Assembly (NCBI GenBank): GCA_019358895.1
Contig: JAHHIG010000019.1
Location: forward strand, 45,177-109,176
Origin: Tildeniella nuda ZEHNDER 1965/U140
GTDB taxonomy: Bacteria; Cyanobacteriota; Cyanobacteriia; Leptolyngbyales; Leptolyngbyaceae
Reading direction: 5' to 3'
DNA: 64,000 nt
Position 1 is the first letter of the stretch, and the number at the start of each line of letters is the position of its first letter. Of this stretch, positions 5,981-41,271 are shown piece after piece. Both the position numbers and the translations under genes were made by a program. The notes beneath the pieces were generated by a model, which had not been told where the DNA came from, ran no database searches, and was given only the letters and a program-made list of their open reading frames with translations.

Positions 5981-5994
5981 TTCCACGCTAATTA

Positions 5995-9934: not shown

Positions 9935-10048
9935 AGCCTCAATTCCTGGCTCCCTTTAAGCACTTATAAATGGTATCTGGGAATTATGTGTGCTTCACTC
10001 TAACGCTTAAATTGTTCCTTACTTTTCGTCTAACTCCGTCTGGCTACT

Positions 10049-12220: not shown

Positions 12221-12424
12221 ATTAAAAGAGCTACACCTCAGGTCAAAAGACTGATTGATAAATTCGATCAAAAAGCACCAATTTACTTTGCACTGCCGCT
12301 GGATCTACCAGATATAGAGAAGCTTTTCCTAAAACGATCGCTTTATGGCAGTAGATATTTTTCAGCTCATTGCCATTTACTCTCTGCTCATAGCTCTACT
12401 GGCGCTAAGGCTTGAGCCAATAAC

Positions 12425-14123: not shown

Positions 14124-15488
14124 GTGGAGATTATGGAGATAATTTCATTAGCAATTCTATTAATTGGATGTAGCTTATCCATGATCTTCTTTGTAGTTGT
14201 GTTCCACTACACTAGCAAAAAGAAAGTAACCGACAAGCTAGACAAGCTATTTACTCTGGCTGTGGTTATCTTTATTCTGCCAACAGTCATTCTTTCTCCT
14301 TTTCAGTTCCAGGATCTAGCGATCGGAGATATCCCGCTCACAAAGCTGGTTGTAAGGCTGGCTTTTTATAGTGTAATACTTATTTTCTTCAGAGCTTGGT
14401 TTCGTGGGTTTCTACGTAACTCAGTTGAGTTGTTTAAAGAGCCCTTTTTGGCTCTCCTTCTCGTTCTAGCGCTTTTATCTTTTGGATGGTCTGACACTCC
14501 TGGTTTAACCTTCCGCGGGAGCTTGGCAGCGCTGATAGTAGCTATGCTCGCTGCACACATTGCAAAACGATATAGTTGGGAAGAGCTGAATTATTTCATT
14601 CGATGGAGCTTAACAATTACAGCTATTTTAAGCCTGTTTGCTGTTGTCTTACTACCTTCGATCGGACGACTTGAGCTTTCGTATTGGAGAGGCATTTTCG
14701 TAGGTAGCAAGGCTATGCCTATTGAAATGAGCCTAAATATCCTTTTATGGTATTGGTACATCCTTTGTCACTCAAAACACCGCTTAATATCGCTTGGCAT
14801 TATATTTCTATCAGTTGTTCTGCTAAGTATGGGGAGAGCCATATCAAGTGTTTTTATCCTTCTTGCTCTACTTTGTTTGTTGACGGCACTACGGTCTATC
14901 CGGTTGTATAAACATAGGCAGGCTCCATTGATTATTTTATTTTTTCTAATAGTTGGGATTCTTGGCGGTTCAATCATCACTGAGAATGCAGCTAGCATCA
15001 TTGTGGCATCTGGAAGGAACACCAATTTGACAGGTCGTGCAGAAATTTGGCCCCAAGTTCTAGGGTACATTGCGCAAAGACCATGGACCGGGTATGGGTA
15101 TGCAGGTTTTTGGCAGTTTTGGAGGGGTTCAGATAATCCCGCTGCAAGTATTTTTCTTCCTGGTTATGTTCCAGGTCATGCCCATAATGGCTTTCTAGAG
15201 ATTCTTCTACAACTAGGAATTCCCGGGCTAGTGTTTTATCTTGGTGCATACTTAAGAGCCATCACTTCAGCATTTACTCACAGTATGAACAGTAAGCTGA
15301 GTGAAGCAACTCTGCCACTTATAGTGCTACTGTTTCTCGCACTTACCAATAATACAGAAACCGAGCGCCAAGGTTTAATTGGAGCAAATTTCTACTGGTT
15401 TTACTTTGTGCTAATGCACATTCGACTAAACATTGAAGCTAGAAGAAGCTTCAAGAGAAATAGACTCATAGAGAATTTTAGTACATAG
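14124..15488 (+). CDS. O-antigen ligase / polymerase-like membrane protein
   Basis: A 454-residue polytopic protein with about eleven hydrophobic segments. A large extracytoplasmic loop carries GRAEIWPQVLGYI and then the family's hallmark PGHAHNGFLEILLQLGIPGLVFYL near residue 350, matching the Wzy_C/O-antigen ligase domain. Such proteins transfer or polymerise undecaprenyl-linked sugars on the outer face of the inner membrane. Starts possible are GTG 14124 and ATG 14133. It is followed four bases later by the next transferase, so they form an operon. Confidence 0.88.
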   Translation: MEIMEIISLAILLIGCSLSMIFFVVVFHYTSKKKVTDKLDKLFTLAVVIFILPTVILSPFQFQDLAIGDIPLTKLVVRLAFYSVILIFFRAWFRGFLRNSVELFKEPFLALLLVLALLSFGWSDTPGLTFRGSLAALIVAMLAAHIAKRYSWEELNYFIRWSLTITAILSLFAVVLLPSIGRLELSYWRGIFVGSKAMPIEMSLNILLWYWYILCHSKHRLISLGIIFLSVVLLSMGRAISSVFILLALLCLLTALRSIRLYKHRQAPLIILFFLIVGILGGSIITENAASIIVASGRNTNLTGRAEIWPQVLGYIAQRPWTGYGYAGFWQFWRGSDNPAASIFLPGYVPGHAHNGFLEILLQLGIPGLVFYLGAYLRAITSAFTHSMNSKLSEATLPLIVLLFLALTNNTETERQGLIGANFYWFYFVLMHIRLNIEARRSFKRNRLIENFST

Positions 15489-15492
15489 CATT

Positions 15493-16410
15493 ATGAATAC
15501 CCCAGTTGCCTTACTGATCTTTAAACGACCTGACACAACTGAAAAGGTCTTTGAAGTAATTCGTCAAGTTAAACCTTCTAAATTGCTGGTAGTTGCTGAT
15601 GGTCCGCGTTCTGACCGCCCAGGCGAAGCAGAGAAGTGTGAGGCAGCTCGTGCTGTTATCGATCGTGTCGATTGGGACTGCGAAGTCCTAAGAAATTATG
15701 CCGATTTTAATTTAGGGTGCCAGCAGCGTGTGGTGAGTGGGCTAGATTGGGTATTCGACACGGTTGAAGAAGCGATTATTTTAGAAGACGATTGCTTACC
15801 CCATCCATCATTCTTTCGTTTTTGTGAAGAACTGTTAGACCGTTACCGACATGACGAACGCGTCTTTGCAATCTCAGGACAAAATGTGCAAAAGAGTTGG
15901 AACCGAAGTCAGTACAGCTACTACTTTTCTCGTTACCACCACGGTTGGGGCTGGGCAAGTTGGCGCAGAACCTGGAAGCATTTTGATGTTGAAATCCCGC
16001 TCTGGCCACTGATCCGCGATCAGGGCTTACTAGAGGATATCTTAAGGGATGCTAATGCCATAAAAGTCTGGACTCAAGTGTTTCAATCCATGTATGAACA
16101 GGAGAGAGACACAATTTGGGATTATCAAATGATGTTCACCTGCTGGATACAAAGTGGCTTGACTATCTTACCTCGCGTGAAGTTAGTCGAAAATATCGGC
16201 TTCAGCCAAGATGGAACGCATACCCTTTCTGAAAACAATCCTTACAGCAAAATTCCACTTGGAGCGGTTACTTTTCCCTTAAAGCATCCCCCTTATATTA
16301 TCCGAGATGCCCAAGCCGATGACTTTACACAACAGACGTTGTTTGATTACCAGCCAAACTTGTTCAAACGTGTCGTGAAAAAAATGAGAAGTTTCAAACA
16401 TAATTCCTAG
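15493..16410 (+). CDS. GT-A glycosyltransferase (GNT-I/HlpA-like)
   Basis: A 305-residue protein of the group often annotated as hemolytic protein HlpA-like or sugar transferase. It starts VALLIFKRPDTTEKVFEVI, has LVVADGPRSDRPGE near residue 36 and a metal site AIILEDDCLPHPSFFRF near 95, followed by GWGWASWRRTW near 155 and DTIWDYQMMFTCW near 215. The EDD motif resembles eukaryotic GNT-I. It almost abuts the ligase-like gene, so the two are probably co-transcribed. Confidence 0.85.
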   Translation: MNTPVALLIFKRPDTTEKVFEVIRQVKPSKLLVVADGPRSDRPGEAEKCEAARAVIDRVDWDCEVLRNYADFNLGCQQRVVSGLDWVFDTVEEAIILEDDCLPHPSFFRFCEELLDRYRHDERVFAISGQNVQKSWNRSQYSYYFSRYHHGWGWASWRRTWKHFDVEIPLWPLIRDQGLLEDILRDANAIKVWTQVFQSMYEQERDTIWDYQMMFTCWIQSGLTILPRVKLVENIGFSQDGTHTLSENNPYSKIPLGAVTFPLKHPPYIIRDAQADDFTQQTLFDYQPNLFKRVVKKMRSFKHNS

Positions 16411-16446
16411 TCTAAGAATTGGACGACCACCCTACTGATTTGAACT

Positions 16447-17718
16447 ATGCAAGTTTTACATTTAAGTAGCTCTGATGATGGAGGTGCGGGTCGGGCAGCG
16501 CACCGTCTACATAAAGGTTTACGGAACCTAGCTGTAACGTCTCATCTACTGACACAACATAAAACCAGTGATGATACAACGGTCTTATGTCCACAAACAA
16601 AGCTAGAAAAGGTAATTCATCGGTTAAAATTACCTGAACGTCTAGACGCTCTGCCACTGAAACGGTACGCTAACCCTAAAGAGATTGCGTTTACGCCACA
16701 GTGGTTTCCAGACAATGCCCTCTCTAAGGTGGCTCAAATTGATACAGATATTGTTAATCTCCATTGGCTGGGTCATGGTTACTTACAGCTTGAAACAATT
16801 GCCAAACTAAATAAACCCATTGTCTGGACGCTGCACGATATGTGGGCATTTACCGGTGGATGCCACTACACCGGAGACTGCGATCGTTATGTTGTTAATT
16901 GTGGTAACTGCCCGCAATTACAAAGTGACAAGGAGCACGACCTATCACGCTGGGTTTGGCAGCGCAAAGCAAAGGCTTGGAAGCAGCTAGATCTAACTAT
17001 TGTGACTCCCAGCATCTGGCTTGCCCGCTGTGCCTCTTCTAGTGCGTTGTTTCATAATTTGCAGGTAAAAGTGATTCCCAATGGACTAGATACCCAGATC
17101 TATAAACCATTGAATCGACAACTTGCTCGCGATCGGCTGAATTTACCTCAAGATAAATCACTTATTTTGTTTGGAGCTATGCGTCCAACAGGAGACCCCC
17201 GAAAAGGATTTCATTTATTACACTCTGCCTTGCAACGCCTGAAACAAACAGAATGGCAAGACAAAATTGAGTTGGTTATTTTTGGTGTATCTCAACCTAG
17301 CACTTCAGTTGATTTAGGATTCTCTACCCATTATCTCGGTAAATTGAGTGATGATATTTCATTGGCGCTAGTATATGCTGCAGCTGATGTCTTTGTTGCA
17401 CCTTCTGTGCAAGACAATCTGCCAAATACGATTATGGAGGCGATCGCTTGCGGGACTCCTTGCGTTGCCTTCAATCTCGGAGGGATGCCAGACATGATTG
17501 AGCATAAACGTAACGGTTATCTAGCTCAACCTTATGAAGTTGACGATTTGGCTCAAGGAGTTGCTTGGGTGTTAGGCGACGAGGAACGACATTTGAAGTT
17601 ATGCGACCGTGCACGCCAGAAAGCTGAACAAAAATTTACTTTGGAAATGCAAGCCAAAGAATATTTGCGGCTTTATCAAGAGATAACAGATAAAACTTCG
17701 ACGCGTCAAATTGTTTAG
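16447..17718 (+). CDS. GT4-family glycosyltransferase
   Basis: A 423-residue GT-B transferase. The N-terminal domain starts MQVLHLSSSDDGGAGRAAHR and carries the subgroup's cysteine cluster FTGGCHYTGDC...NCGNCPQL (about residues 138-160), which could bind a metal. The donor domain includes RPTGDPRKGFHLL near 250 and DNLPNTIMEAIACGTPCVAF near 326, where the usual first Glu of E-x7-E is Asp. The gene lies 36 bp after its neighbour and is probably in the same operon. Confidence 0.88.
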   Translation: MQVLHLSSSDDGGAGRAAHRLHKGLRNLAVTSHLLTQHKTSDDTTVLCPQTKLEKVIHRLKLPERLDALPLKRYANPKEIAFTPQWFPDNALSKVAQIDTDIVNLHWLGHGYLQLETIAKLNKPIVWTLHDMWAFTGGCHYTGDCDRYVVNCGNCPQLQSDKEHDLSRWVWQRKAKAWKQLDLTIVTPSIWLARCASSSALFHNLQVKVIPNGLDTQIYKPLNRQLARDRLNLPQDKSLILFGAMRPTGDPRKGFHLLHSALQRLKQTEWQDKIELVIFGVSQPSTSVDLGFSTHYLGKLSDDISLALVYAAADVFVAPSVQDNLPNTIMEAIACGTPCVAFNLGGMPDMIEHKRNGYLAQPYEVDDLAQGVAWVLGDEERHLKLCDRARQKAEQKFTLEMQAKEYLRLYQEITDKTSTRQIV

Positions 17719-18269
17719 AAATAACTTAATGGTTGGCTGAGAGCTTGCACTACCCTCAAGGAGGGTTACCAAAAGAGTAAACGTCTGGAGAAGAAGGCAT
17801 AGTAATAATTTGGATTGACAATTATAGGAAGGCTCGCCATTCACACTCAAGAGCTTACTACAAATTTCTTTCCTTAATACTTAAGATGTATCGAAAAGCA
17901 GACTCAATGCTTTGTTTGGGCTATCTCTAGAAGCCCAAGGACATCACTTATCCCAATACACCTATGTGAACCAACACGTTCGTCGAGTCTATAAGCGAAC
18001 CACTATAGTTGGTTTACCCACAAGGCAGTTCGCACTAACCTCCGAGATCTTTTGTAGCAAACTAGCAAACTTTTGCCTTGTTCAACAGTTCCACTGTGCG
18101 AAAGCATTTCGGACGAACGACTAGTTGTGAAGAAATAGTGAAGAATGACTGTAGGGCTTTTCATTTCTCCTGATAGTGGAGCTTTAGAAGGAATAACGAA
18201 ATGTAAGCAGTCATAGATTTATTCCTGTTACTGCACTACTTGTATCAACTCAACCCCAATTTGTTAATT
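17719..18269. other. gap between transferase genes
   Basis: A short perfect inverted repeat (ACCCTC/GAGGGT, about 17752-17767) lies 34 bp after the previous stop. An open stretch from about 17912 includes LSLEAQGHHLSQYTYV, which may be a gene fossil, but it has no recognisable family. No intact gene is seen. Confidence 0.4.
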
Positions 18270-19169
18270 ATGGGAAGTCATCGTCTTGCAGTCCTCATGA
18301 CGTGTCATAACCGGAGGGAAAAGACTTTAGCTTGCTTGTCCGCTTTGTACAAACAACAGTCTCCAACAAATCTCGCTCTCAGCATTTACTTGGTGGATGA
18401 TGGTAGTACTGATGGTACTTTTCAGGCAGTGCGCCAGAGCTATCCCCAAGTTTGCCTACTTAAGGGTAGCGGAAGCTTATTCTGGACAGGCGGCATGCAT
18501 CGAGCATTTGCAGAAGCGCTTGAGCATGAGCATGACTTCTACTTGTGGCTAAATGACGACACTATCCTCTATCCACAAGCACTGGATACATTGCTTCACA
18601 CCTGGAATGAGTTAGATAAGCAGGGTGAGCATCATGCGCTCATCATCGGATCTACACAAGACCCAGAGAGCAATGAACTAACCTATGGAGGTTTACGCTG
18701 CACTGCTTGGTTTCGTCCTCTCAACTTTTCGCTTGTAAAACCAATGGAAGTTTCACAACAGTGTCAAACCATGAATGGCAACTGTGTATTAATTCCTCAT
18801 GAGGTTGCTAAAAGGGTGGGTAACGTAGATCCAATCTTTAGACATTACCTGGCTGACTATGATTATGGTCTGAGGTCTCGGCAACAGTGCTGTACCCTTT
18901 GGATTGCTCCACACTACATCGGGACCTGTTCTAACAATGGATTGGGAAATGAAAAGAAGTATAAAAATCTATCCCCAAGTCAGCAATTGCAGAAGCTAAC
19001 GCAACCCAAAGGTCTGTTAGCCGAAGATGCTGTTCTCTATTCGTTAGAAGAATGGAAAGTTTTTGCTCAACGGCACGGTGGACCATTTTGGTACATCTAT
19101 TGGTTGTCACCATATAGAAGAATAATCTGGTCACTTGCCCTTAATAAACTAAAAGCGGTAGCGGCTTAG
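18270..19169 (+). CDS. GT2-family glycosyltransferase
   Basis: A GT-A transferase of about 299 residues. I chose ATG 18270 (MGSHRLAVLMTCHNRREKTL), which matches the usual N-terminus, over an upstream TTG at 18240. Landmarks are LVDDGSTDGTF near residue 42 and the acceptor-site DD in FYLWLNDDTILYPQAL near 92. LADYDYGLRSRQQ near 203 resembles the ED base loop of rhamnosyltransferase-like members. It is probably cytoplasmic and probably works on the cluster's polymer. Confidence 0.87.
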   Translation: MGSHRLAVLMTCHNRREKTLACLSALYKQQSPTNLALSIYLVDDGSTDGTFQAVRQSYPQVCLLKGSGSLFWTGGMHRAFAEALEHEHDFYLWLNDDTILYPQALDTLLHTWNELDKQGEHHALIIGSTQDPESNELTYGGLRCTAWFRPLNFSLVKPMEVSQQCQTMNGNCVLIPHEVAKRVGNVDPIFRHYLADYDYGLRSRQQCCTLWIAPHYIGTCSNNGLGNEKKYKNLSPSQQLQKLTQPKGLLAEDAVLYSLEEWKVFAQRHGGPFWYIYWLSPYRRIIWSLALNKLKAVAA

Positions 19170-19251
19170 AACGTTCGAGATTAGTGAGTTCAACGTTACA
19201 TCTAACTACCGGTTAATTTCAGCACTCTCAAGATATACTCCAGGAACCTAT

Positions 19252-20391
19252 ATGAGTGATCTTCGCATTGCCTGGGTTTTTCCTTCGCTTCGAACAGGCA
19301 ATTATTGGCATCCTGTTTTCAGTAGATTCACTACAACCTTCAGGAAAACCGTTATCTATACAGGGCTTTGGACAGGATTTTCTCCGGGATTTGAAAACAC
19401 TTTTTCTATTCAAGTCGTTGGGAAAACAAAGTTTTTAGAAACTAAAGTGACGGATGGCTACAGCCGTGGCGTATCCTATGTTTCTCCAAAAATTATCATC
19501 TATTTGCTTCGCTTCAGGCCACAGGTAATATTTACGATGGGTTTCTCTATCTGGACACTCTTTATCGTGCTCCTAAAACCTCTGTGTAGATGGCGGATTG
19601 TAATTGTTTATGACGGCAGCAGTCCCAATATAGACTGTCTAGATTCTCCATTTCGCATATGGCTACGGCGTATAATGATTAGCTTATCAAATGCTTGTAT
19701 TACTAATACCCAAGCTGGAAGATCTTATTTAACTAGGATTCTGAAGGCTAAAGAGAACTGTGTATTTCAGCAACCGTATGAAGTTCCTGATTCAACCGCA
19801 TTGTTAAAGGTTTTGCCCGATTCTGAATCTATGCCACGCCAGTCTCAGCGACCAGTTTTTCTATTTGTTGGACAACTAATTCAGCGCAAAGGACTGAGCC
19901 TACTGCTGCAAGCATGTGTGATTCTACAGTCGTGGGGCTACCGAAATTACGGTTTACAAGTTATTGGTCAGGGTTCCATGGAAGAAGAACTCAAAGCATT
20001 CAGCCAGCAGCATAATCTACCTGTGGATTGGATTGGATGGGTAGATTATGGTAAGATTGGAAATTATTTTCGTAATGCTGATGTCTTTGTTTTACCTACA
20101 TTAGAAGATACATGGGGAATGGTCGTTCTAGAATCCATGGTGTTTAGTAAACCAGTTCTCTGCTCTAAATGGGCAGGAGCCTCAGAAATGATTTCACATG
20201 GAGAGAATGGGTACCTTTTTGATCCAAACCAGCCTGAGGATCTTGCTAAAACTATGCGTCATATTATCGAACATCCTGATTTGATTACCACTATGGGTGA
20301 AAAATCTAAGCAAGTGATTGCTCAGCATACTCCCGAAACCGCCGCAAAGTTTCTTACTGAAGTAGCTTTATTCGCTATAGAAGATCAGTAA
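19252..20391 (+). CDS. GT4-family glycosyltransferase
   Basis: A 379-residue GT-B transferase. The ATG at 19252 follows an AGGAACC ribosome site. The acceptor domain has a hydrophobic stretch near 85-115 that may associate with the membrane. The donor domain shows FVGQLIQRKGLSLLLQA near 205 and LPTLEDTWGMVVLESMVFSKPV near 282, the E-x7-E equivalent. Its AT-rich composition is like that of the surrounding genes. Confidence 0.88.
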   Translation: MSDLRIAWVFPSLRTGNYWHPVFSRFTTTFRKTVIYTGLWTGFSPGFENTFSIQVVGKTKFLETKVTDGYSRGVSYVSPKIIIYLLRFRPQVIFTMGFSIWTLFIVLLKPLCRWRIVIVYDGSSPNIDCLDSPFRIWLRRIMISLSNACITNTQAGRSYLTRILKAKENCVFQQPYEVPDSTALLKVLPDSESMPRQSQRPVFLFVGQLIQRKGLSLLLQACVILQSWGYRNYGLQVIGQGSMEEELKAFSQQHNLPVDWIGWVDYGKIGNYFRNADVFVLPTLEDTWGMVVLESMVFSKPVLCSKWAGASEMISHGENGYLFDPNQPEDLAKTMRHIIEHPDLITTMGEKSKQVIAQHTPETAAKFLTEVALFAIEDQ

Positions 20392-31756: not shown

Positions 31757-32554
31757 ATGGTAAAGCAGGACATCTCGATACAGCTATTGCCGGGAATGCT
31801 TCAGATTGTCGGGGAACATCAGTGTGCAGGTCAACAGCCGGATAATCTTTGCGGACCGTATTGGGCAGCACTGTTGTTGCGATCGCGTGGCTTCCATCAT
31901 CTCACTTCAGAGTACATGGCTCAGTTAGCAGGTTCTGTTCTCCCTACAGGCGATCCCATCACCTGGTTGCCTCAAGGCGCAGCTTCAAAACAGGACTATG
32001 AACTGCCACTTCCCACTGCTCTGCGTCCTGAAGACGCGGGAACGTCCGCGCAGGGGTTAATGACGGCTGTTGCAATGTCTGAGCATAGTCACACACTCCT
32101 GCCCCTACAGACAGAATGGTCAGCAGAGAAAGTCGCTGCTGTTCTAGAACTGTGCCAAAAGCATCCCGCTTGGAATGCGGTTCCCTTGTGCAATGTACGA
32201 ACGGGACATCTATGGGGTTCTCATCTAAGCGTGAAGGACGCGATCGCTTATCTAAAGGGTGGATCAATATCACCACCACCTGCCGATTGGAATGTTGGTC
32301 ATTTTATGGCGCTGGCAGGCACCGTCGCGGGTCAAACGCGCTCCCTGGTAATCGTCTGTGATACCTATCCGATGTTTGGCTGGCAGGGCTATCACCTTCA
32401 ATCGGCAGATGCGATCGCCCAGGCTCTCAACCGAGACGATGGTTATGGTGGCGGCATCCTTCTATTTATTGCCACTCACGATAGAGAACAGATAGAGCAA
32501 CACGCGCAAGCCGCAGGTTTCCACATTGAGGCTTGGGACAACGGCAGTCCTTAA
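31757..32554 (+). CDS. uncharacterised protein, possible C39-like cysteine hydrolase fold
   Basis: A 265-residue soluble protein. It resembles an uncharacterised family that I believe is DUF6885, which I could not verify. Three motifs suggest a papain/C39-like hydrolase: Cys32 in QQPDNLCGPYWAALLL (helix N-terminus), His182 in WNVGHFMALAG, and Asp202 in VIVCDTYP. There is no signal peptide. It sits tail to tail with the glutamine-synthetase-like gene (40 bp), suggesting a link to gamma-glutamyl chemistry, but the catalytic triad and any link are inference. Confidence 0.65.
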   Translation: MVKQDISIQLLPGMLQIVGEHQCAGQQPDNLCGPYWAALLLRSRGFHHLTSEYMAQLAGSVLPTGDPITWLPQGAASKQDYELPLPTALRPEDAGTSAQGLMTAVAMSEHSHTLLPLQTEWSAEKVAAVLELCQKHPAWNAVPLCNVRTGHLWGSHLSVKDAIAYLKGGSISPPPADWNVGHFMALAGTVAGQTRSLVIVCDTYPMFGWQGYHLQSADAIAQALNRDDGYGGGILLFIATHDREQIEQHAQAAGFHIEAWDNGSP

Positions 32555-32593
32555 ACCTCTACTTTCTACTCCCTACTTCCTACTCCCTACTCC

Positions 32594-33973
32594 CTAATAA
32601 ATCTCCATATACTCTTGCCGTTCCCATTCCGTGATGTGGTCGTGGAAGCGGGCAAGTTCAAATTGCTTGACGGTTGTGAATAGATGGACAAACTCTTCGC
32701 CTAAGAGCGATCGCAGTTCCTCATCTGCCGCCAATGCCTCCAGTGCTGCTTCCAGGGTTTGAGGAAACTTGGGTAGCGTGGGATTGTCTTCACTCGGTCC
32801 CTCGACTGGGGGCTGCAAGGCGTACTGATGCTGGATCCCCAGCAAGCCAGCAGCCAGGGTTGCCGCTGCGGTGAGGTAGGGATTGCTCAGTCCCGATGCT
32901 GCCCGCATTTCGAGATGAGTGTCTTCATCATGGGTAGCTTTGACGCGCACCATTGCCGATCGGTCTTCGATACCCCAGCTAATGTTGGACGGCGCGAAGG
33001 TGTGAGGCTTGAGGCGACGGTAGCAGTTTGGCGTGGGACCAATGAGCGGAAACATCGCCGGAGTATGGGTGAGAATACCCTGAATGAAAGATTTGAACGT
33101 GGTGGATAAACCATCGGGATCGTCCTGATCCACACAGATATTCTTGCCTGTGTTGCGATCGAGCAAGCTGATGTGAAAATGGCAGCAACATCCCGCGCGA
33201 TCGGCAAACGGCTTGGACATAAAGGTTGCCAGGTAGCCCATGCGATGAGCAATTTCCTTCACCGCATTCTTGAACGTAAACGCTTTGTCGGCACCGCGAA
33301 GACCGATACCCGGACCAAAATTGATCTCAAACTGCGAGGGTGCGTACTCACAGTTGCTCGTAATCACATCCACGCCAGAACCGCGCAGGTAGTCTAGGAG
33401 TTGATCCAGTTCGGGCACATATTGATTGCGAATTTGATTAAAGATGTGTAGCCCACCGAACAACGGTTCTTGTGTTTCGCCGTGCAACAGATAGAACTCA
33501 AATTCGTGTCCCATCATCACGTCAAAACCCATCGCAGCGGCTTTGTGCAGCAGTGCCTTGAGGACATAGCGTGGTGCAACAGTTAGCGGATCGTTGGAAC
33601 TCCACTGCGGATCGCAAATGACTTTAGCGGTGCGATCGAGCCACGGCACAGGGGTCAGCGTATCGAGGTCAGGTATCAACATGTGATCGCGGTATTTCCG
33701 CTCCTCATGCAGTCCCGCTCCCGAAACGACCATTGAAGCCGTATCAAGCGCCAGCGTACCGCCGTAGAAGTTCAAACCCTTGCGGGTGTAGTTTTCCACC
33801 TTATCAATGGGAACCACTTTTGAGCGGGAGATCCCGTGCAGATCAGGCAACTCAAACCGTACATATTCAATCTCCCACTCCTTAAGAGTGGACATGAATT
33901 GGTCAATGCGATCGGATGCTGCCTGCTCTGCCCCGTTGCTCGTTAAATTAGATGAAACAAATTCCGTTACCAT
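32594..33973 (-). CDS. glutamine-synthetase-family ligase (probable gamma-glutamyl-amine synthetase)
   Basis: A 459-residue GS-fold enzyme that would form a gamma-glutamyl amide from glutamate, ATP and an amine. Visible GS landmarks are HEFEFYLL near 155, NCEYAPSQFEINF near 210, a substrate/ATP loop FMSKPFADRAGCCCHFHISL near 255 in place of the GlnA form with GSGMHxH, and YRRLKPHTFAPSNISWGIEDRSAMVRV near 325. The triple cysteine before HFH and the N-terminal extension separate it from true GlnA and fit PuuA/GlnA3-like ligases. It lies six bases after an amino-acid permease on the same strand. Confidence 0.88.
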   Translation of the reverse strand: MVTEFVSSNLTSNGAEQAASDRIDQFMSTLKEWEIEYVRFELPDLHGISRSKVVPIDKVENYTRKGLNFYGGTLALDTASMVVSGAGLHEERKYRDHMLIPDLDTLTPVPWLDRTAKVICDPQWSSNDPLTVAPRYVLKALLHKAAAMGFDVMMGHEFEFYLLHGETQEPLFGGLHIFNQIRNQYVPELDQLLDYLRGSGVDVITSNCEYAPSQFEINFGPGIGLRGADKAFTFKNAVKEIAHRMGYLATFMSKPFADRAGCCCHFHISLLDRNTGKNICVDQDDPDGLSTTFKSFIQGILTHTPAMFPLIGPTPNCYRRLKPHTFAPSNISWGIEDRSAMVRVKATHDEDTHLEMRAASGLSNPYLTAAATLAAGLLGIQHQYALQPPVEGPSEDNPTLPKFPQTLEAALEALAADEELRSLLGEEFVHLFTTVKQFELARFHDHITEWERQEYMEIY

Positions 33974-33979
33974 GAGTCG

Positions 33980-35443
33980 CTAAACCTTTTTCATGTCGCT
34001 GAAGCGTGTATGTGTAGCTTCAATATCGTTTTCCATCTCTTGGATAATCTCAGGCGAACGGAACCGCAGAAAGAGGAACCAGCCTGCCCCGATCGCCATG
34101 TAGAGGAAGAACCAGTAGGGAAAGGCGTTGAAGGGTGCAGCGGGTGTGGGAAACAGGTCGCTACCGGGAAGCCCAATACTGCCAAGGACGGGGATAACCA
34201 TAAAGCCCACGCCCAAAACCGCAAACAAAACATCACTCCAGCGCAGTTGATGCTCACGATATAGATAAACCGGAGCTGCGATCGAGATCAAAATATAAGC
34301 AACCAGAAACCCATAGGTTGCAATGGTGCCAAAGTAGCCATATCCTTCCAGCACCTTGACACCGCTTGAAATTGCCAGTACAGGAGCCAGAAACGTAAGC
34401 ACCGCCGTGATCGTAATGGCAATGTGCGGAGTCTCATTCCGACCGTGTGCCTGACCGACAAGATTATGGAAAATTCCATGCCGCCCCATTGAGAAGAAAA
34501 TTCGCGCGCCCGCATTTAAGCTGGCAAGGGCGCAAGCAAAGAGACTGACCATTGCGCCAAGTGAAATCAACGCTCCAAAAAAGGTAACGCCTGCAAACTT
34601 CGCCAAATCGTTCAACGGTGCCTCGCTCTTGTTAAAGGCGACAGGGGCACCTTGAAAACCAAGCACTTCAATGTAGGAAAGAACGATGAAGAAAAGCCCC
34701 GAAATGACTGTACTGATGATGACTGCACGGGGAATACTCCTCAACGGGTTTTTCGCCTCATCACCCAGCGTTGTGGCGCTTTCAAACCCAACATAGCTAA
34801 AGACTGCCAGCACCAGTCCGGTCACGATTCCGCCTGAGCTTGCACCTTGAAGGCTTAACTGAGCCGGATCAATGATGGTACCTTTCTTGGCTATCACAAT
34901 GAGCGCCAGGATAATGATTAGCCCAACCGAAGCGGCTTCCACTGCCAGCATCACCACGGTCGAAAGCTCAATATCCTTGTATCCCACATACCAGGCAGAG
35001 CCGACGCAAATGGCAATTAAGAAGATGGTTAGCCCGATCGACGGGCTAATGCCCACCATACTCAGCAAGACCTGACTGTAGTTGGCAAAACCACAGGTAA
35101 CAGCCATTGCCGTCAGCAGATATGCCAGAATTAGTGCCCAACCCGTCAGCACACCAGCGATCGGTCCAAGTCCCCTGGTGATGTAGGCGTAGAGGGAACC
35201 GGGAGACGCGGAACGACGCGCAAACTGGTTGATATTGATGCCAACAAAGGTCAACCCGATCGTGGCAAAGACAAAGGTCAACCAGGTGCCCACGCCAGCC
35301 GTGGCAAACACGAGCGCTGCATTCACGGTTGGCGTTACCGTCGGCGCAATGTTGGCGATCGACTGAGCAATCACTTCAGGAAAAGAAAGACATTCGGGTC
35401 GAAGACCAGAAAGACTCGGTTTAATCTCTAAGTCGGTAGACAT
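33980..35443 (-). CDS. APC-family amino acid/amine permease
   Basis: A 487-residue transporter with about twelve hydrophobic segments. The APC signature is clear: the broken first helix with TPTVNAALVFATAGVGTW, RSASPGSLYAYITRGLGPIAG near 75, and SYVGFESATTLGDEAKNPLRSIPRA near 215. It is six bases upstream of the GS-like ligase, so uptake and gamma-glutamylation are almost certainly co-expressed. The substrate is probably an amino acid or polyamine-like amine. ATG 35443 is the start. Confidence 0.92.
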   Translation of the reverse strand: MSTDLEIKPSLSGLRPECLSFPEVIAQSIANIAPTVTPTVNAALVFATAGVGTWLTFVFATIGLTFVGININQFARRSASPGSLYAYITRGLGPIAGVLTGWALILAYLLTAMAVTCGFANYSQVLLSMVGISPSIGLTIFLIAICVGSAWYVGYKDIELSTVVMLAVEAASVGLIIILALIVIAKKGTIIDPAQLSLQGASSGGIVTGLVLAVFSYVGFESATTLGDEAKNPLRSIPRAVIISTVISGLFFIVLSYIEVLGFQGAPVAFNKSEAPLNDLAKFAGVTFFGALISLGAMVSLFACALASLNAGARIFFSMGRHGIFHNLVGQAHGRNETPHIAITITAVLTFLAPVLAISSGVKVLEGYGYFGTIATYGFLVAYILISIAAPVYLYREHQLRWSDVLFAVLGVGFMVIPVLGSIGLPGSDLFPTPAAPFNAFPYWFFLYMAIGAGWFLFLRFRSPEIIQEMENDIEATHTRFSDMKKV

Positions 35444-35803
35444 AATAAACCTTAGGGAACAAAGAACTCAATAGCCACAACGGTTGCACGTGGACGTTTT
35501 AATCATTTACGAATTAACGTCTTAGAGATGGACAACATCTACGCAGTTGCATCAAGATAGGTCTCAAGCAAAATGCTAAGACCGCCTACAGTAAGGCACT
35601 CGAATCGTTTTAGATTAGTTTTAACAACGTGAGCTTTGAGCTAAAAAATACGTTCTTTGAGTAGCGCTCGCAGACGTTCCTAATCAAAAACTGAATTTCC
35701 GCTTAAGCTACGCTACTTAGAAAAACAAATTCGTAGCAAGCATTACTAACTCAAAGCTTCCATACGGAGAACTGTTTCCGATCGGTTGTCATCATTAGGA
35801 CAA
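35444..35803. other. gap upstream of the permease-ligase operon
   Basis: The 360 bp between the permease start and the end of the first PhyH gene should carry the operon promoter. It is AT-rich near 35650-35750. I saw no convincing gene, operator or repeat. Confidence 0.4.
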
Positions 35804-36691
35804 TCAGATGCTGACCAGAGCATCGTCGCAGTATGCCATGACCATTGGAGTGCGATCGCCTGCTTGTGTCCAAAGGATGGGAAAGAAACTTTCATCCATC
35901 GCCGTTTCACCGATCCGGCGGTAGCGGCTGAAAATGTAACCTGAACCCACGCCAGGAGGTTGAAACCGGGCATCGGCTGGAAGGGTTGTAATGGCGAAAC
36001 TCTGGCGAGTTTGATCAGCGGTAGTGTTTCTCCCCGAACCATGCCACAGATTGCCGTGTAGAAAAATGCAGCCACCCGCCGGAATCTCTACCGCTAAGAG
36101 CGCAGGCTGGTCAACCCCTGCCTCTTTTGCCGCTTGCCAAAGAGGCTGTCGGTAATCCTCTTTTGGCGCATGAAGAAAGCGGAATTGATCAGAGCACTGC
36201 CATTGATGCGAGTGAGGTACAATCTCCAACGTGCCTGGTGAACCCGTCGTATCACTCAGGGCAATCCAGCAGGTGATGACGGAAGATGGGTCGATGCAGG
36301 TAAACGCCGTGTTGTTGCGATGGAACAACACTTCTGGCGCACCGGGAGGCTTGATCCAGCAGCTATCCGTTGCCAGTCGTCCACCGCTCCAACCCATAAG
36401 TGTGGCATTCAAGCGAGCAATTTCGGCTGAGAGGGCAAGGCTGGCAACGGTACGATCGCACCGCCACATCCCACACATTTGTCGGGTCGCAGTTGGCTGG
36501 TTTAGCCCTGGTCGTCCGTGCCATTCATCGGGATAAACACCTGTTTCAAATTGAGTCGCAAAGAGGGGATCCAGTCGATCGACCACGCGATCGATCAGTT
36601 CTAAATCCAAAAATTTCTCCAGAATCAGAAACCCTTCTGCTTGAAACTGATGGATTTGCCCGTCACTTAGCTGCACTGGCTCATGATTCAT
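35804..36691 (-). CDS. PhyH-family oxygenase-like protein with altered iron site
   Basis: A 295-residue member of the phytanoyl-CoA dioxygenase family, Fe(II)/2-oxoglutarate oxygenases that hydroxylate diverse substrates. The usual HxD iron ligand pair is here HRN (His124, Asn126 in VLFHRNNTAF). The distal His217 in NLWHGSGRN and the following Arg of TRQSF, expected to bind 2-oxoglutarate, are kept. It is paralogous to the next gene along its whole length. I chose ATG 36691 over the upstream TTG. Loss of the acidic ligand suggests either inactivity or changed chemistry. Confidence 0.85.
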   Translation of the reverse strand: MNHEPVQLSDGQIHQFQAEGFLILEKFLDLELIDRVVDRLDPLFATQFETGVYPDEWHGRPGLNQPTATRQMCGMWRCDRTVASLALSAEIARLNATLMGWSGGRLATDSCWIKPPGAPEVLFHRNNTAFTCIDPSSVITCWIALSDTTGSPGTLEIVPHSHQWQCSDQFRFLHAPKEDYRQPLWQAAKEAGVDQPALLAVEIPAGGCIFLHGNLWHGSGRNTTADQTRQSFAITTLPADARFQPPGVGSGYIFSRYRRIGETAMDESFFPILWTQAGDRTPMVMAYCDDALVSI

Positions 36692-36763
36692 CAATGGCAA
36701 TCCTCAATGGTTTGTGAGCGATGTTCTTTGGCTCAAACATCACTCTCTGTAATACCCGACTTC

Positions 36764-37663
36764 TTAAACCATCATCAGTGGAGCCTGTGCTGCCAGCGCA
36801 TCCTCACAATAATTCCCTAAAAAGGGCGTGCGATAGCCATCTTGCTGATAGACGATCGGAAAGAAGCTTTCATCCATCGTGTCATCCCCAAAGCGCTTAT
36901 AACGTCCGGCAATGTATCCTCCCGGTACGTAGGCTCCCGTTGGTTGAAAGCGTGACTCCGCTGGGATGTGTACAATCACAAGACTGCGGCGAACGACATC
37001 AGGCATCAGGTTTTTTCCAGAACCATGCCACATATGACCGTGATGGAACGCACAACTGCCTGGTTTTAGCTCTAGTTCCATCACCTCTGGCTGGTCGATG
37101 CCTGCCCGTTTCGCTGCCTGTTCCATTTCCCAGCGATAGCTGCGACTGGGTGCGTGAAACTCTGGCACGGCACCGGAGCGCATCCAACGATGAGACCCGC
37201 GAACATACTCGATCGTGCTTGCCCCACGAACTGCGTGGCTGAGGGCAATCCAACACGTGACTAACTGCTGGGGCGTATGGTAGAACGAATACATTGAGTC
37301 CTGATGCAGCGTCGTTTCGGTCGCGCCAAAGGGCTTCATCCACAGGCTGTCACTCAAAATCCGTGCGCCACTCCAGCCAGCCAACTCTGCGCTAATGGCT
37401 CCCATTCTGGCGGACAGAACGACAGAGGCGAGGGCGCGATCGCTCTTCCAAACATTGCTCATTTGCCCTGACGCGCCCGGTAGACCCAGAGACGGATTCC
37501 AATACCACTCATCGGGATAATTCCCTGTCTCAAACTCACCGTCAAAAAGCGGCTCTACCCGCTCAACCAGACGGTTAACTATGGTTTCATCCAAAAGGTT
37601 TTCAATGATTAAAAACCCATTTTCATGAAATTGATTAATTTGCTCTGAGGTTAAAGAAACCAT
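36764..37663 (-). CDS. PhyH-family Fe(II)/2-oxoglutarate dioxygenase
   Basis: A 299-residue paralogue of the neighbouring gene with a complete metal site: His120 and Asp122 in TTLHQDSMY, and His213 in HMWHGSGKN with the Arg pair VVRRSLV after it. It probably hydroxylates a small molecule handled by the local gamma-glutamyl pathway. ATG 37663 is preferred to TTG 37681. The 72-bp gap to the paralogue and the same direction suggest an operon formed by tandem duplication. It is divergent from the amidotransferase gene. Confidence 0.88.
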   Translation of the reverse strand: MVSLTSEQINQFHENGFLIIENLLDETIVNRLVERVEPLFDGEFETGNYPDEWYWNPSLGLPGASGQMSNVWKSDRALASVVLSARMGAISAELAGWSGARILSDSLWMKPFGATETTLHQDSMYSFYHTPQQLVTCWIALSHAVRGASTIEYVRGSHRWMRSGAVPEFHAPSRSYRWEMEQAAKRAGIDQPEVMELELKPGSCAFHHGHMWHGSGKNLMPDVVRRSLVIVHIPAESRFQPTGAYVPGGYIAGRYKRFGDDTMDESFFPIVYQQDGYRTPFLGNYCEDALAAQAPLMMV

Positions 37664-37841
37664 TGCACCACTCAGTTCCAATCCTTGGGATCGTTAGCCT
37701 GCCCAACAAAATGCGAAACAGTTTCAATGCTACTCTGCTTAGTGCAAACCTGACAACCAAGTGCTTAGAACGCAACACATAAGTCATCGACTCATGACAT
37801 AAACACTCACTCTAGATTACTGATCCACGATCGAGATACCA

Positions 37842-38564
37842 ATGAAAAAAAAACCATCTATTCTAGTAATTCGGCATGAAAAGTGCTCCAGTTTAGGCTT
37901 ACTAGAAACTGCGCTAAGAAAACAGGCAGTGCCTTTTAAGTACCTGGACACACCTCAGGGTGAAGTACTGTTAGAGCCAGTTAATCAATACTCTCATATT
38001 ATTGTTTTAGGCGGCTCAATGAGCGCCTATGAAGATCAAGAACATGCGTTTCTAAGATATGAATTTAAGCTCTTAGAAGATGCGATCGAACAGGGAATTT
38101 CGACTCTAGGCATCTGTTTAGGCTCTCAGATTTTGGCAACCGTTTTAGGTGCTAAAGTTTACCGAGGAGAGGCTGGACGAGAAGCAGGTTGGTGCGACGT
38201 TCAGTTACTCCAATCCTCAGCAACCGATCCTTTATTGAAGGAGTTCCCTGAGCGCTTCAAGGTTTTCCAATCTCACCAGGATACCTTTGAAATACCATCG
38301 GGTTGTGTGCATTTAGCAAGAAGCGAGAAGTACGCCCATCAAGCATTTCGGTATCAAAATCATGTATGGGCAATGCAATTCCATCTCGAAATTGATGAGA
38401 ATGTTTTAGGCGATTGTGCTGCTGTGATCGACCAGGAGTTGAAAGACAGTAACATTCAAGATACCAATTTAATTCAACTGCTAAAGGACGCAAAAGAGCA
38501 CTCTCCTTTCGTGGCACCGCTGGCAAATCGTTTTATGCATAACTTTCTAGAGTTGGCGCGATAG
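37842..38564 (+). CDS. class I glutamine amidotransferase-like hydrolase
   Basis: A 240-residue stand-alone GATase1 domain. The triad is complete: Cys92 in LGICLGSQILA, and His181 and Glu183 in MQFHLEID. No synthetase domain is attached. Related free-standing enzymes hydrolyse gamma-glutamyl bonds, for example PuuD with gamma-glutamyl-GABA, though this sequence is closer in style to GuaA-type GATases. Divergence from the PhyH genes and proximity to the GS-like ligase make gamma-glutamyl release its likely role; this is inference. Confidence 0.85.
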   Translation: MKKKPSILVIRHEKCSSLGLLETALRKQAVPFKYLDTPQGEVLLEPVNQYSHIIVLGGSMSAYEDQEHAFLRYEFKLLEDAIEQGISTLGICLGSQILATVLGAKVYRGEAGREAGWCDVQLLQSSATDPLLKEFPERFKVFQSHQDTFEIPSGCVHLARSEKYAHQAFRYQNHVWAMQFHLEIDENVLGDCAAVIDQELKDSNIQDTNLIQLLKDAKEHSPFVAPLANRFMHNFLELAR

Positions 38565-38599
38565 CAGTCCTGAATCAAGCGCGAAATTGGGTGACAGCT

Positions 38600-38826
38600 T
38601 TGATGGTTTCATGCTGGCTGTATCCTTTTTACTTGCTTGCAATCGATAGTCCAATGGGTGGGCTGCTGAGTAACCTGGGCACGATCGCTCTGACCACGTT
38701 TGTCGTTATACAGACGTTATACAGATCTGGTCAGTCTCAAAGCTCACCACCCTCTTGAGTTTGCCTGTCATTTTCTGGGTTACCGTTGCAACGCTAACCG
38801 TCCTCAAAGGTTTAGGGTGGCTTTAA
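38600..38826 (+). pseudogene. frameshifted small membrane protein
   Basis: Two hydrophobic stretches in different frames follow the amidotransferase gene. The first is MVSCWLYPFYLLAIDSPMGG with LSNLGTIALTTFVVIQTLY; the second is SKLTTLLSLPVIFWVTVATL ending KGLGWL at TAA 38824-38826. Joined, they would make a two- or three-helix protein. No intact start and frame is present, so I read it as a frameshifted remnant. Confidence 0.45.
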
Positions 38827-38914
38827 CCAACAGCTCTGATATTTACAAGGCAGTGCTTAAATTCTGCACAAATGTTTGAGACCCGATTGCTCCATCCATC
38901 AAGGAACCTTTTCT

Positions 38915-39544
38915 ATGTTGAAGCTCATCCACATTAGCGTGATTGCTGGTTGTTTTGGCGCTCTTTCGCTGCTGCCACTGCCGCTTGCCTCCGGCTCTAG
39001 TTTATTCAACAGCACGGTTGATCAATTGCCGACAGAAGAGCGAGTGCTCTTGCGAAACGGTCAGCCGCTGATTACGGGAGAGAACGGTCAGTATACAGCC
39101 AGAGTTTTACTCTCAACGTCGGCAGATACAGTATGGTCGGTGCTCACAGACTACAGCAATACGCCAACGTTCATGCCGTATGTAGTGTCGAGCAAAGTGA
39201 TTACGGTCAATGGCAATCAGAAAGTGATTGAGCAGGTTGATGTGCGCCAAGTGTTTTTTGTGACTGCTCGATCGCGGATTCGCTCAGCGATTACGGAAAC
39301 AGCCAAAACCCGCATTGACTTTCAAGCGATCGACGGTGACTTGAAAAGCCTGAAGGGTTACTGGCTGCTAGAACCGATCGCGCCCTACACAGGTGCAAAA
39401 GCAAATCAGATTTTGCTGACTCAAGTCATTGAGGTGCAACCCAAAGCGGGAACGCCATCAAGGATCTTTTACGACGTTTTCAAGGATTCATTGGGCGAGA
39501 GCATGAGCGCTATCAAGAGAGAAACTGAACGACGCACTCAATAG
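38915..39544 (+). CDS. exported SRPBCC-family (START-like) protein
   Basis: A 209-residue protein from ATG 38915, which follows an AAGGAA ribosome site at nine bases. A signal peptide or anchor (MLKLIHISVIAGCFGALSLL) is followed by a SRPBCC/cyclase-dehydrase fold, recognisable from SADTVWSVLTDYSNTPTFMPYV near 75 and a C-terminal long helix. Such domains bind hydrophobic ligands in a helix-grip pocket. It is probably periplasmic or thylakoid-luminal. It stands alone. Confidence 0.82.
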   Translation: MLKLIHISVIAGCFGALSLLPLPLASGSSLFNSTVDQLPTEERVLLRNGQPLITGENGQYTARVLLSTSADTVWSVLTDYSNTPTFMPYVVSSKVITVNGNQKVIEQVDVRQVFFVTARSRIRSAITETAKTRIDFQAIDGDLKSLKGYWLLEPIAPYTGAKANQILLTQVIEVQPKAGTPSRIFYDVFKDSLGESMSAIKRETERRTQ

Positions 39545-39702
39545 TGTTGGTGCAAATAAACCAGAGCGATCGGCTTGTAAATGACGTTGATTAAGCGCGT
39601 TCCGCCTCCCACTCGTCTACCGGGAACCCCTTTGCCCGCTAGAGCCGTATCAGTCATAAACAGCAAGAGCGCGATCGTAGTCATTAAGATACTCAAACGC
39701 AT
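39538..39702 (-). CDS. small exported Gly/Arg-rich protein
   Basis: From ATG 39702 it encodes 54 residues: a clean signal peptide (MRLSILMTTIALLLFMTDTALA) and a short basic mature part, GKGVPGRRVGGGTR, then LINVIYKPIALVYLHQHY. The PGRRVGGGTR motif recalls the start of DUF928-type cyanobacterial proteins, so this may be a truncated relative. Its 3' end overlaps the SRPBCC gene by seven bases, tail to tail. Confidence 0.55.
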   Translation of the reverse strand: MRLSILMTTIALLLFMTDTALAGKGVPGRRVGGGTRLINVIYKPIALVYLHQHY

Positions 39703-39882
39703 ACACCGAACCTCAACAGTAACACTGCGATAATTCTTAGCGGTTCGGCTCCGAATGAACAGCGTGATTGTACGGCTGTGTGAAAAACCAATAAACACAG
39801 CCACTAGCAGTAGGGCGTTGAAGGCTCCAGATTGCTACTCAACTACCCGGCACGGAGACAGCGTTTGGTGGGGCAGAAAGCG

Positions 39883-41271
39883 TCAGTTTGTGTTAGGAAT
39901 GCGCTTGCCGTAGCTTGCCAGCACTTGCAGCACGATGCCTGGTGCCAACAGCGCTGTTGGCGGCTTGACCATATGCACCACTTCCGCAAACGTTTTCATA
40001 AGAGCTGGACTGTCCTGCATGAGTACAGTGACACGATCGAAATACTTTTGCATCAGACGCTCACGCCTCCCTGGTTGCGCTCCCTTTGTCGTAGACCAGC
40101 GACCATCTTCTCCCGTTGCCATTAGCCAAGGAGTTTTGAGCTGACGGGCAAGCTGCTTGTGAAACCGGAGCGAGAAATGATTGCGTGTCTGAGTTTGCAC
40201 CTGTTTTAAGCAGCGATCGAGCGTCATTGCGCTCAAGGCTGCTGTTGTCATGCCCTGTCCATAGACTGGATTGAAGGCGCAGACTGCATCACCCAGCGCC
40301 ACAATACCCTCAGGCATGTGATGCAAGCGCTCATAGTGTCGCCAACGATTTTCGGTACGACGATAGCTGTAGATCGGCGATAGCGGTTGCGCCTCTTTGA
40401 GCAAGTCATACAGAATGGGTACCCGCAAACTGCGAGCAAACGCCAGAAAGCCTGTCTCGTCTGTCGGTGGGTAGTCGTGTCCTACGCCGCCGAGGGTGAC
40501 GATCCAACGATCGTTCTCGATCGGATACAGTACACCGCCGCGCGAGTTAACCCCTTCGAGTGCAGCGACAGTGATGCCTTGCCAATCGGCTTCTAAAGAC
40601 TTTGGACGCTCATACCAGCGGCTTGCATAACCGAGAAAGGCATTAATCATCGTTTCTGGTGGTGCATCGTAGCCCATCTGCGTTAACCAGCTAGGCAAAG
40701 CAGAATTCCGCCCACTGGCATCAACCACCAGCGCGGCACTCAGCAACGGCACTGATGCGGCATCCGGAGTACGCCAGTGCAACTGAACGCCGTTCACGCG
40801 CTGGTTCTCCTTTGTGGTGAGCAATCCCTCGACCTGACAGCCTGTGAGCAACGTCAACTTTGGAGATGCTAGCAGCCGTTGACGGATCAGCCCTTCCAGT
40901 AGCGTCCGGCTACACGTCCGTCCTGACAGATCGGATGAACAGCGCGGCAGCCACTTCCCCGCCCCCAACATGAGCCAGTCAGCCGTCCACTCGACGGTCG
41001 GCGCACCTGCTGCGGTGAGTGCTGCTGCTAAACCTGGAAAGAGCTGTTCTAGCAAGCGTTGACCTTGGGTCAGTAGCACGTGGACATGCTGCGATTGCGG
41101 CACACCGGGACGAGTTGCTAGTGGGTCAGAAACACCATCGCGCTCGATCAGCACGACCTCAGCAAAATGGTCGATCAGGACGCGAGCGGCAAGCAGACCC
41201 GCCATGCTGCCACCAATAACAATGGCACGACGGGGTGAATCAACGCTCGTGTCGGCGACTAAACTAATCAT
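39883..41271 (-). CDS. FAD-dependent oxidoreductase/monooxygenase-like protein
   Basis: A 462-residue flavoprotein of the PHBH/UbiH-like group. The FAD-binding RAIVIGGSMAGLLAARVL (GxxxxG form) starts at residue 16 and is followed by VVLIERD. A second FAD motif is GIVALGDAVCAFNPVYGQGMTTAALSA near 325. It contains VVDASGRNSALPSWL near 185. It may oxidise an aromatic or isoprenoid substrate. No partner genes are adjacent. Confidence 0.85.
   Translation of the reverse strand: MISLVADTSVDSPRRAIVIGGSMAGLLAARVLIDHFAEVVLIERDGVSDPLATRPGVPQSQHVHVLLTQGQRLLEQLFPGLAAALTAAGAPTVEWTADWLMLGAGKWLPRCSSDLSGRTCSRTLLEGLIRQRLLASPKLTLLTGCQVEGLLTTKENQRVNGVQLHWRTPDAASVPLLSAALVVDASGRNSALPSWLTQMGYDAPPETMINAFLGYASRWYERPKSLEADWQGITVAALEGVNSRGGVLYPIENDRWIVTLGGVGHDYPPTDETGFLAFARSLRVPILYDLLKEAQPLSPIYSYRRTENRWRHYERLHHMPEGIVALGDAVCAFNPVYGQGMTTAALSAMTLDRCLKQVQTQTRNHFSLRFHKQLARQLKTPWLMATGEDGRWSTTKGAQPGRRERLMQKYFDRVTVLMQDSPALMKTFAEVVHMVKPPTALLAPGIVLQVLASYGKRIPNTN

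Follow-up and report, generated by a model that had tools for sequence, protein, structure and literature searches.

We analysed a window of 64,000 nucleotides (nt) from the cyanobacterium Tildeniella nuda ZEHNDER 1965/U140 (contig JAHHIG010000019.1, positions 45,177 to 109,176; the source assembly comprises 6.08 Mb). Between its positions 31757 and 38564 lie six genes, which encode a DUF6885 protein, a ligase resembling glutamine synthetase (GS), an APC-superfamily permease, two proteins of the PhyH fold (PhyH1 and PhyH2) and a class I amidotransferase-fold protein (Table 1). A preliminary description of this DNA had read these genes as a pathway for the import, gamma-glutamylation, oxygenation and hydrolytic release of an amine. 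All six genes were present where it had placed them, and the spacing of six bases between ligase and permease was confirmed. The DUF6885 gene and the ligase gene stand tail to tail, so that the former is convergent with the permease-ligase operon. The two PhyH genes are separated by 63 bases, with PhyH2 first and PhyH1 second in transcription order.

Table 1. Genes and promoter elements of the cluster, in window coordinates (last row: coordinates in the loci named).
Feature	Position	Strand	Details
DUF6885 protein, predicted papain-like cysteine hydrolase	31757..32554	+	Cys32, His182, Asp202; PF21819
GS-like ligase, predicted gamma-glutamyl organic-amine synthetase	32594..33973	-	PF00120, 298 bits
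APC-superfamily permease	33980..35443	-	upstream of ligase, 6-base gap; PF00324, 117.7 bits
-10-like TAGCTT	35705..35710	-	exactly 22 nt past NtcA-type site
NtcA-type site GTAATGCTTGCTAC	35733..35746	-	289 nt upstream of permease start codon
PhyH1, PhyH-fold protein, predicted non-catalytic partner	35804..36700	-	HxN replacing HxD
PhyH2, PhyH oxygenase	36764..37681	-	HxD..H and Arg intact; PF05721, 81.2 bits
Class I amidotransferase-fold hydrolase	37842..38564	+	divergent from PhyH2; PF00117, 67.6 bits
Amidotransferase-fold protein of the second arrangement	L022:5308-6126; L020:13820-14623; L030:13415-14218; L084:2293-3096		after PhyH1

The ligase retains the four conserved motifs that we checked (metal, ATP and glutamate). 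In an alignment of 26 members of its clade (a length filter dropped six of the 30 loci described below), the position of Asp50' is occupied by tyrosine in all 26, and that of the flap residue Glu327 by phenylalanine in 25 and by tyrosine in the Rhizobium member; the GlnA protein of the same genome (L035) retains both residues. Loss of Asp50' and of the flap glutamate is described for organic-amine ligases in the available part of the NpaA1 structure paper (PMC11335346). The ligase thus shows the residue pattern of the GoaS type, that is, a GS fold with the metal, ATP and glutamate residues kept and the ammonia-site residues lost. In our tree, which was computed without GlnA3 and GlnA4 of Streptomyces, the ligase clade (support 100/100) stands apart from GlnA, GmaS, NpaA1 and the GS of methylamine loci, and the three GlnA sequences form a clade of their own (100/100) that excludes the ligase. 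Deeper joins are unsure because PuuA and several other sequences form long branches. None of the family models was reached: the ligase scored 241 bits against GlnA (TIGR00653, cut-off 429), 276.2 bits against GmaS/type III GS (TIGR03105, cut-off 469.6) and 241.5 bits against the gamma-glutamylputrescine synthetase (PuuA) equivalog (cut-off 650). The genome also encodes a separate GmaS-like protein (L036). The loss of Asp50' and Glu327 and the position in the tree rule out an ammonia-using GlnA; the preliminary description had staked its reading on this point, and the ligase falls on the favourable side of it. From these residues we predict that the ligase is a gamma-glutamyl organic-amine synthetase.

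Recurrence of the gene set across genomes

Searching the genome collection with the ligase as query yielded 30 loci from 28 genomes; L032 and L033 each cover half of a single gene in the same assembly, and one genome contributes both L008 and L021. Neighbours were counted inside the fetched flanks at E 1e-10 plus set identity floors, and the counts are lower bounds because several contigs end near the ligase. DUF6885 lies near the ligase in 14 of the 30 loci, the APC permease in 13, PhyH1 in 11, PhyH2 in 10 and the amidotransferase in 6. The flanking genes at 38876, 39886 and 30072 were present in none of the 30, which marks the borders of the gene set and rules out membership of the neighbouring SRPBCC, FAD and MlaE genes. 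The six-gene grouping exceeds chance. Conserved co-occurrence, whose absence had been named beforehand as refuting the pathway, was found, in a subset of genomes.

The set is rare. Of 386 genomes sampled evenly across the phylum, one, the window's own, has the ligase clade (E 1e-140), and it is also the only one with DUF6885; PhyH1-like proteins (E 1e-40) were found in five, including it. Across the 28 ligase genomes, DUF6885 occurs in 15 and the PhyH pair in 13, and a fourteenth genome (G409) carries a single PhyH. Both were found in 12 genomes, DUF6885 only in 3, the pair only in 1 and neither in 12 (Fisher p 1.7e-4, uncorrected for descent or incomplete assemblies).

The arrangement of the genes differs between loci. 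L005 and L006 carry permease, ligase and DUF6885 with no PhyH gene nearby, and the genomes of both hold an intact amidotransferase-PhyH2-PhyH1 block on a separate contig (L073 and L074). In L007, this block separates the permease from the gene that is its immediate neighbour in L005 and L006. The cluster therefore seems to consist of two blocks that can be unlinked and are nevertheless retained together in a genome. A second arrangement (L020, L022 and L030; L027 in part) places DUF6885, ligase, PhyH2, PhyH1 and an amidotransferase-fold protein on a single strand, with no APC permease within the fetched flanks. In this amidotransferase-fold protein (aligned for L020, L022 and L030), the nucleophilic cysteine is replaced by serine and the His-x-Glu motif is kept.

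Three further observations concern individual regions. The permease gene of L014 (2434-3856) matches as two overlapping pieces, possibly owing to a frameshift or an assembly error. On a plasmid of Rhizobium sp. ACO-34A (L049:11172-16482), a 49%-identical ligase is flanked by a class I amidotransferase on one side and an amidase on the other, followed by a 2Fe-2S ferredoxin and a serine hydroxymethyltransferase. Elsewhere in the window, positions 4694-20391 are AT-rich (40-43% GC vs about 50%) and encode a Wzt-like ABC protein, glycosyltransferases and an O-antigen ligase (seven reading frames scanned); this is likely a surface-polysaccharide island.

The PhyH pair and the hydrolases

The preliminary description had named two oxygenases of the Fe(II)/2-oxoglutarate (2OG) type. 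This holds for PhyH2, whose metal motif is HQD and whose HxD..H pattern is retained in 16 of 16 PhyH2 proteins. It does not hold for PhyH1, where the motif is HRN: among the 120 PhyH1 matches listed, of 365 found, the Fe(II) triad is intact in none. Two ordinary Fe(II)/2OG oxygenases are ruled out, as only PhyH2 keeps the triad. In 18 of the 120 listed matches the distal histidine, too, is replaced by arginine, glutamine or asparagine, so that the metal site of PhyH1 looks dispensable. PhyH1 is under purifying selection even though its triad is not intact, and we conclude that it is probably a non-catalytic subunit. Its closest structural match is RESC14, which is described as a PhyH pseudoenzyme in the accessible part of PMC12936278. 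PhyH1 and PhyH2 form separate clades (100/99 and 100/100, respectively) and are adjacent in 15 complete pairs, plus one that is cut by a contig end.

PhyH1 could instead be an unorthodox Fe(II)/2OG enzyme that binds its metal through the asparagine, or through two histidines and another ligand, and acts after PhyH2. Halogenases, for example, have a metal site of the HxA/HxG type. Both histidines are kept in 102 of the 120 listed matches (101 as H,N,H) and the arginine at the usual 2OG position in 111, and PhyH1 weakly matches a chlorinating-enzyme model (22.1 bits, cut-off 226.3). Given the matches that have lost the distal histidine and the pseudoenzyme as nearest structure, we consider such an enzyme improbable.

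The DUF6885 protein matches PF21819 with 298.9 bits (gathering score 27), its sole Pfam hit at E 0.001. A confident structure model shows a papain-like cysteine hydrolase fold, nearest to cyanobacterial phytochelatin synthase; the sequence model of phytochelatin synthase gave no match. The model backs the possible Cys/His/Asp hydrolase suggested earlier for this gene, and on its basis we predict that DUF6885 is a papain-like cysteine hydrolase. A literature search, short on subscription journals, found nothing on this family.

In the amidotransferase, the previously noted Cys92, His181 and Glu183 were confirmed and are kept in the five orthologues that were aligned. Its best fit is PRK07053 (163.6 bits, below the cut-off of 250). 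Peptidase C26 (PF07722) is matched over 37 residues only (22.1 bits, cut-off 20.5), less well than PF00117; the match to E. coli PuuD is insignificant (E 0.04), and identity to NpaA2 is 24%. The permease is 21% identical to PuuP.

Promoter pattern and substrate hints

The strict motif GTAN8TAC is found in 9 of the 12 permease upstream regions of loci in which the permease precedes the ligase (shuffle mean 0.9), and GTG replaces GTA in 3 of the 12 sites. NtcA-activated promoters have about 22 nt between the site and TAN3T. The full pattern GT[A/G]N8TAC-N22-TAN3T is present in all 12 of these loci (the window and 11/11 others), compared with a shuffle mean of 0.04 of 12 and with 1 of 134 intergenic gaps elsewhere in these loci, the single one lying before the transporter gene of L022; the 22-nt spacing was chosen for testing only once inspection of the data had revealed it. 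Both GTA-N8-TAC and GTG-N8-TAC at about -41 are given as NtcA sites in PMC3610870, in the part available.

The plain motif count in the window (14 vs a mean of 6.8) is unconvincing alone, and bare GTAN8TAC also occurs in 13 of the 134 other gaps, some of them in related amine loci. It is position (9/12) and spacing (12/12), not count, that make the site convincing. General promoter and terminator scans gave background level only. We predict from this pattern that the permease-ligase operon is under an NtcA-type nitrogen promoter. Between this promoter and the permease start lies a leader of ~255 nt (window 35444-35704). No Rfam family was matched anywhere in the window at gathering scores, and the leader is therefore without a known riboswitch at that threshold.

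Hints at the substrate come from loci with a single PhyH protein of a third type. Among 11 such loci fetched, a solute-binding-protein gene was present in nine and a GS-like ligase in eight, and four (L030, L053, L054 and L078) encode both a trimethylamine monooxygenase (Tmm) and a protein resembling trimethylamine N-oxide (TMAO) demethylase (Tdm). In L053, Tmm scored 798 bits (cut-off 675) and the TMAO-demethylase-like protein, with 826 bits, stayed under its cut-off of 1100. In L030, the single-PhyH amine locus runs straight into an operon of the window type. Of nine gaps separating the PhyH gene from the binding-protein gene, six contain a strict NtcA-type site. The single PhyH beside trimethylamine genes hints at small alkylamines, and on this neighbourhood evidence we favour a small alkyl- or methylamine as the substrate class. 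One idea is that single PhyH proteins replace the heme-type dimethylamine demethylase; an HODM-family protein was found in 4 of the 14 genomes searched and not in the other 10, most of the assemblies being of uncertain completeness.

The cyanobacterial methylated-amine locus is an observation in its own right. It occurs at L053:7677-15269 and in L054, L030, L078, L052 and L075-L077, and comprises, not all genes everywhere, Tmm, the TMAO-demethylase-like protein, a GS-like ligase of 500 amino acids, a binding protein and a single intact PhyH. Our literature search returned nothing on cyanobacteria with trimethylamine monooxygenase together with phytanoyl-CoA dioxygenase, nor on 2-oxoglutarate-dependent demethylation of gamma-glutamylmethylamide. 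Near the window-type ligase itself, some neighbours hint at substrates other than small alkylamines: an omega-aminotransferase is encoded in L005-L007 and L033 (L005 scanned) and aldehyde dehydrogenases in L008, L013, L015 and L016 (L008 scanned). The P450, decarboxylase and MATE genes of L017 and L018 and the polyketide synthase of L051, described below, likewise lead away from that class.

Proposed pathway, alternatives and known systems

Our preferred reading, to which we assign a probability of about 50%, is that the locus encodes a nitrogen-scavenging pathway of amine import, gamma-glutamylation, oxidation of the conjugate and nitrogen release. Starting from the gene set, its recurrence, the ligand residues, the structure models and the promoter pattern, all of them observed, we infer a substrate and an order of reactions that includes import, glutamylation, oxidation, hydrolysis and the formation of a PhyH heteromer. 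When nitrogen is limiting, NtcA would activate the permease and ligase genes; the permease would import an amine, which the ligase would convert with ATP to gamma-glutamyl-NH-R. PhyH2, in a heteromer with PhyH1, would hydroxylate the carbon adjoining the amide nitrogen, and PhyH1 may shape the pocket or stabilize PhyH2, as TlxI does for TlxJ. The resulting carbinolamide would split into an aldehyde and glutamine, by which the nitrogen is released. The amidotransferase-type hydrolase would strip glutamate from stalled conjugates, an activity reported for the glutamine amidotransferase (GAT)-like enzyme of aniline oxidation, and DUF6885 would hydrolyse another amide or isopeptide bond, either in the substrate or in the conjugate. 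We propose the specific version only tentatively, namely an NtcA-controlled route from alkylamine to glutamine and aldehyde in which a pair of one live and one dead PhyH oxygenase cuts the N-alkyl bond and a phytochelatin-synthase-like hydrolase completes the process. The gamma-glutamyl amine pathway as first described is plausible: co-occurrence and the non-GlnA ligase speak for it, and its two ordinary oxygenases have to be given up, as only PhyH2 keeps the triad.

Several observations weigh against nitrogen scavenging by this cluster, in addition to the two histidines that most listed PhyH1 matches keep. Neither DUF6885 nor the PhyH pair was detected in 12 of the 28 ligase genomes, so the ligase works with other partners too, among which are cytochrome P450 and ABC transporters. 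One genome (G300) has the PhyH pair beside a polyketide synthase and lacks this ligase clade. The promoter pattern is confined: in other regions upstream of the ligase the full pattern was found in 0/8 and the bare site in 3/8, and the strict site was found in 1/9 amidotransferase/PhyH2 gaps and in 0/3 upstream regions of DUF6885 in the second arrangement. As for the substrate class, the link is by neighbours only, the single-PhyH locus L083 has none of the amine neighbours, and a HODM-family protein occurs in 4 of the 14 genomes, in G005 inside the single-PhyH locus.

The strongest alternative, which we still regard as unlikely, is the synthesis of a specialized metabolite, in which the gamma-glutamyl group added by the ligase would serve for protection or as a carrier, PhyH2 would tailor the conjugate and the hydrolases would take the glutamyl group off again. 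Relatives of the ligase lie near such functions: L017:9968-17096 contains one together with a cytochrome P450, a tyrosine-decarboxylase-like pyridoxal phosphate enzyme and a MATE exporter, and L018 has the same families of open reading frames. In G300 (L051:4699-18001), the PhyH1-PhyH2 pair is accompanied, besides the polyketide synthase, by a P450, an acyltransferase and a methyltransferase, with no ligase clade (E 1e-140) and no DUF6885 detected. Against this, the permease is of the amino-acid type and not a typical exporter, and the domain scan of the six proteins detected neither assembly-line nor adenylation domains. The NtcA-type promoter in 12/12 permease-then-ligase loci leads us to favour nitrogen scavenging over natural-product synthesis.

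A rearranged Puu-type pathway, in which putrescine or another polyamine would be imported, glutamylated and oxidized, with a hydrolytic step as well, has still less in its favour. It would share the APC permease, the GS-like ligase and the class I amidotransferase fold, the amidotransferase touches Peptidase C26, and in L012 the genes next to permease and ligase encode a type III GS and a PuuD-like Peptidase C26. The scores reported above point the other way, with the ligase far below the PuuA cut-off, the amidotransferase closest to PRK07053, and PuuP and PuuD hardly resembled; they rule out a strict Puu pathway. The comparison with Puu drawn in the preliminary description thus stood in so far as no PuuB- or PuuC-type domain was found among the eight proteins scanned from 31757 to 41271, and turned out to be a loose likeness otherwise.

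Least probable is detoxification, in which glutamylation does no more than blunt a toxic amine, with the oxygenase acting on another compound: GlnA2 glutamylation is tied to survival at toxic polyamine levels (PMC8998196, available in part) and GlnA3 of Mycobacterium tuberculosis glutamylates spermine, without being essential for detoxification (PMC11841054, likewise in part), and against it stand the NtcA-type promoter and the amidotransferase-PhyH2-PhyH1 block kept, though unlinked, in two ligase genomes.

Among the literature search results, titles and the beginnings of abstracts contained no account of this cluster. On the nitrogen-scavenging reading it would be a variant of glutamylation-dependent amine catabolism with a PhyH-family oxygenase, and its PhyH pair and DUF6885 have counterparts in other contexts. 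TlxI-TlxJ also pairs an intact Fe(II)/2OG enzyme with a non-catalysing paralogue, according to the available part of PMC12141560; it belongs to fungal meroterpenoid tailoring, and TlxI is reported to lack the 2OG-binding arginine, whereas PhyH1 lacks the metal carboxylate. TlxI-TlxJ is heterodimeric; for the PhyH pair, contact is predicted. Alr0975/NsPCS has the papain-like fold in common with DUF6885 and has a gamma-glutamyl peptide as substrate, namely glutathione, which it splits into gamma-Glu-Cys and glycine (PMC12065762, part available). DUF6885 differs in forming its own Pfam family, with 13% identity over the aligned region. If our reading is correct, the PhyH genes would be a bacterial example in which an oxygenase has an iron-less paralogue as its partner, and a Pfam family of unknown function would gain a fold, a set of likely catalytic residues and a place in a pathway.

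Among amine systems, Puu of E. coli shares with the window an APC permease, a GS-like ligase and a class I amidotransferase-fold hydrolase, and differs in that the window has the PhyH pair and DUF6885 and no PuuB/PuuC-type gene in the cluster. The Tmm-Tdm-GmaS system likewise sets GS-like ligases beside amine-oxidizing enzymes, with a single PhyH in such loci of some cyanobacteria; the window cluster has neither Tmm nor Tdm, its ligase is not GmaS, and it has a PhyH pair rather than one PhyH. The layout of ligase, amidotransferase and oxygenase in AtdA/NpaA, which oxidize the aromatic amines aniline and naphthylamine, is nearer to the cluster than Puu. In NpaA1-A5, the class I amidotransferase is a protein of its own, and the oxygenase acts once the amine has been glutamylated (PMC11335346, in part), an NpaA-type layout was also seen on annotated plasmid loci, and the GS-like ligases of AtdA/TdnQ/NpaA lack Asp50' and the flap glutamate (NpaA1 aligned). 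The oxygenase there is a Rieske dioxygenase with its reductase, neither of which turned up in the scan of the eight proteins encoded between 31757 and 41271. In addition, the window ligase is 28% identical to NpaA1 and falls in a different clade, and the cyanobacterial cluster adds the permease, DUF6885 and the NtcA-type promoter. We conclude that the cluster may work like AtdA/NpaA and is not a member of that group, because the Rieske oxygenase is absent. It would then give cyanobacteria a source of organic nitrogen under NtcA, and add a further oxygenase class for glutamylation-dependent amine use beside the flavin oxidase and aldehyde dehydrogenase of Puu and the Rieske oxygenase of AtdA/NpaA.

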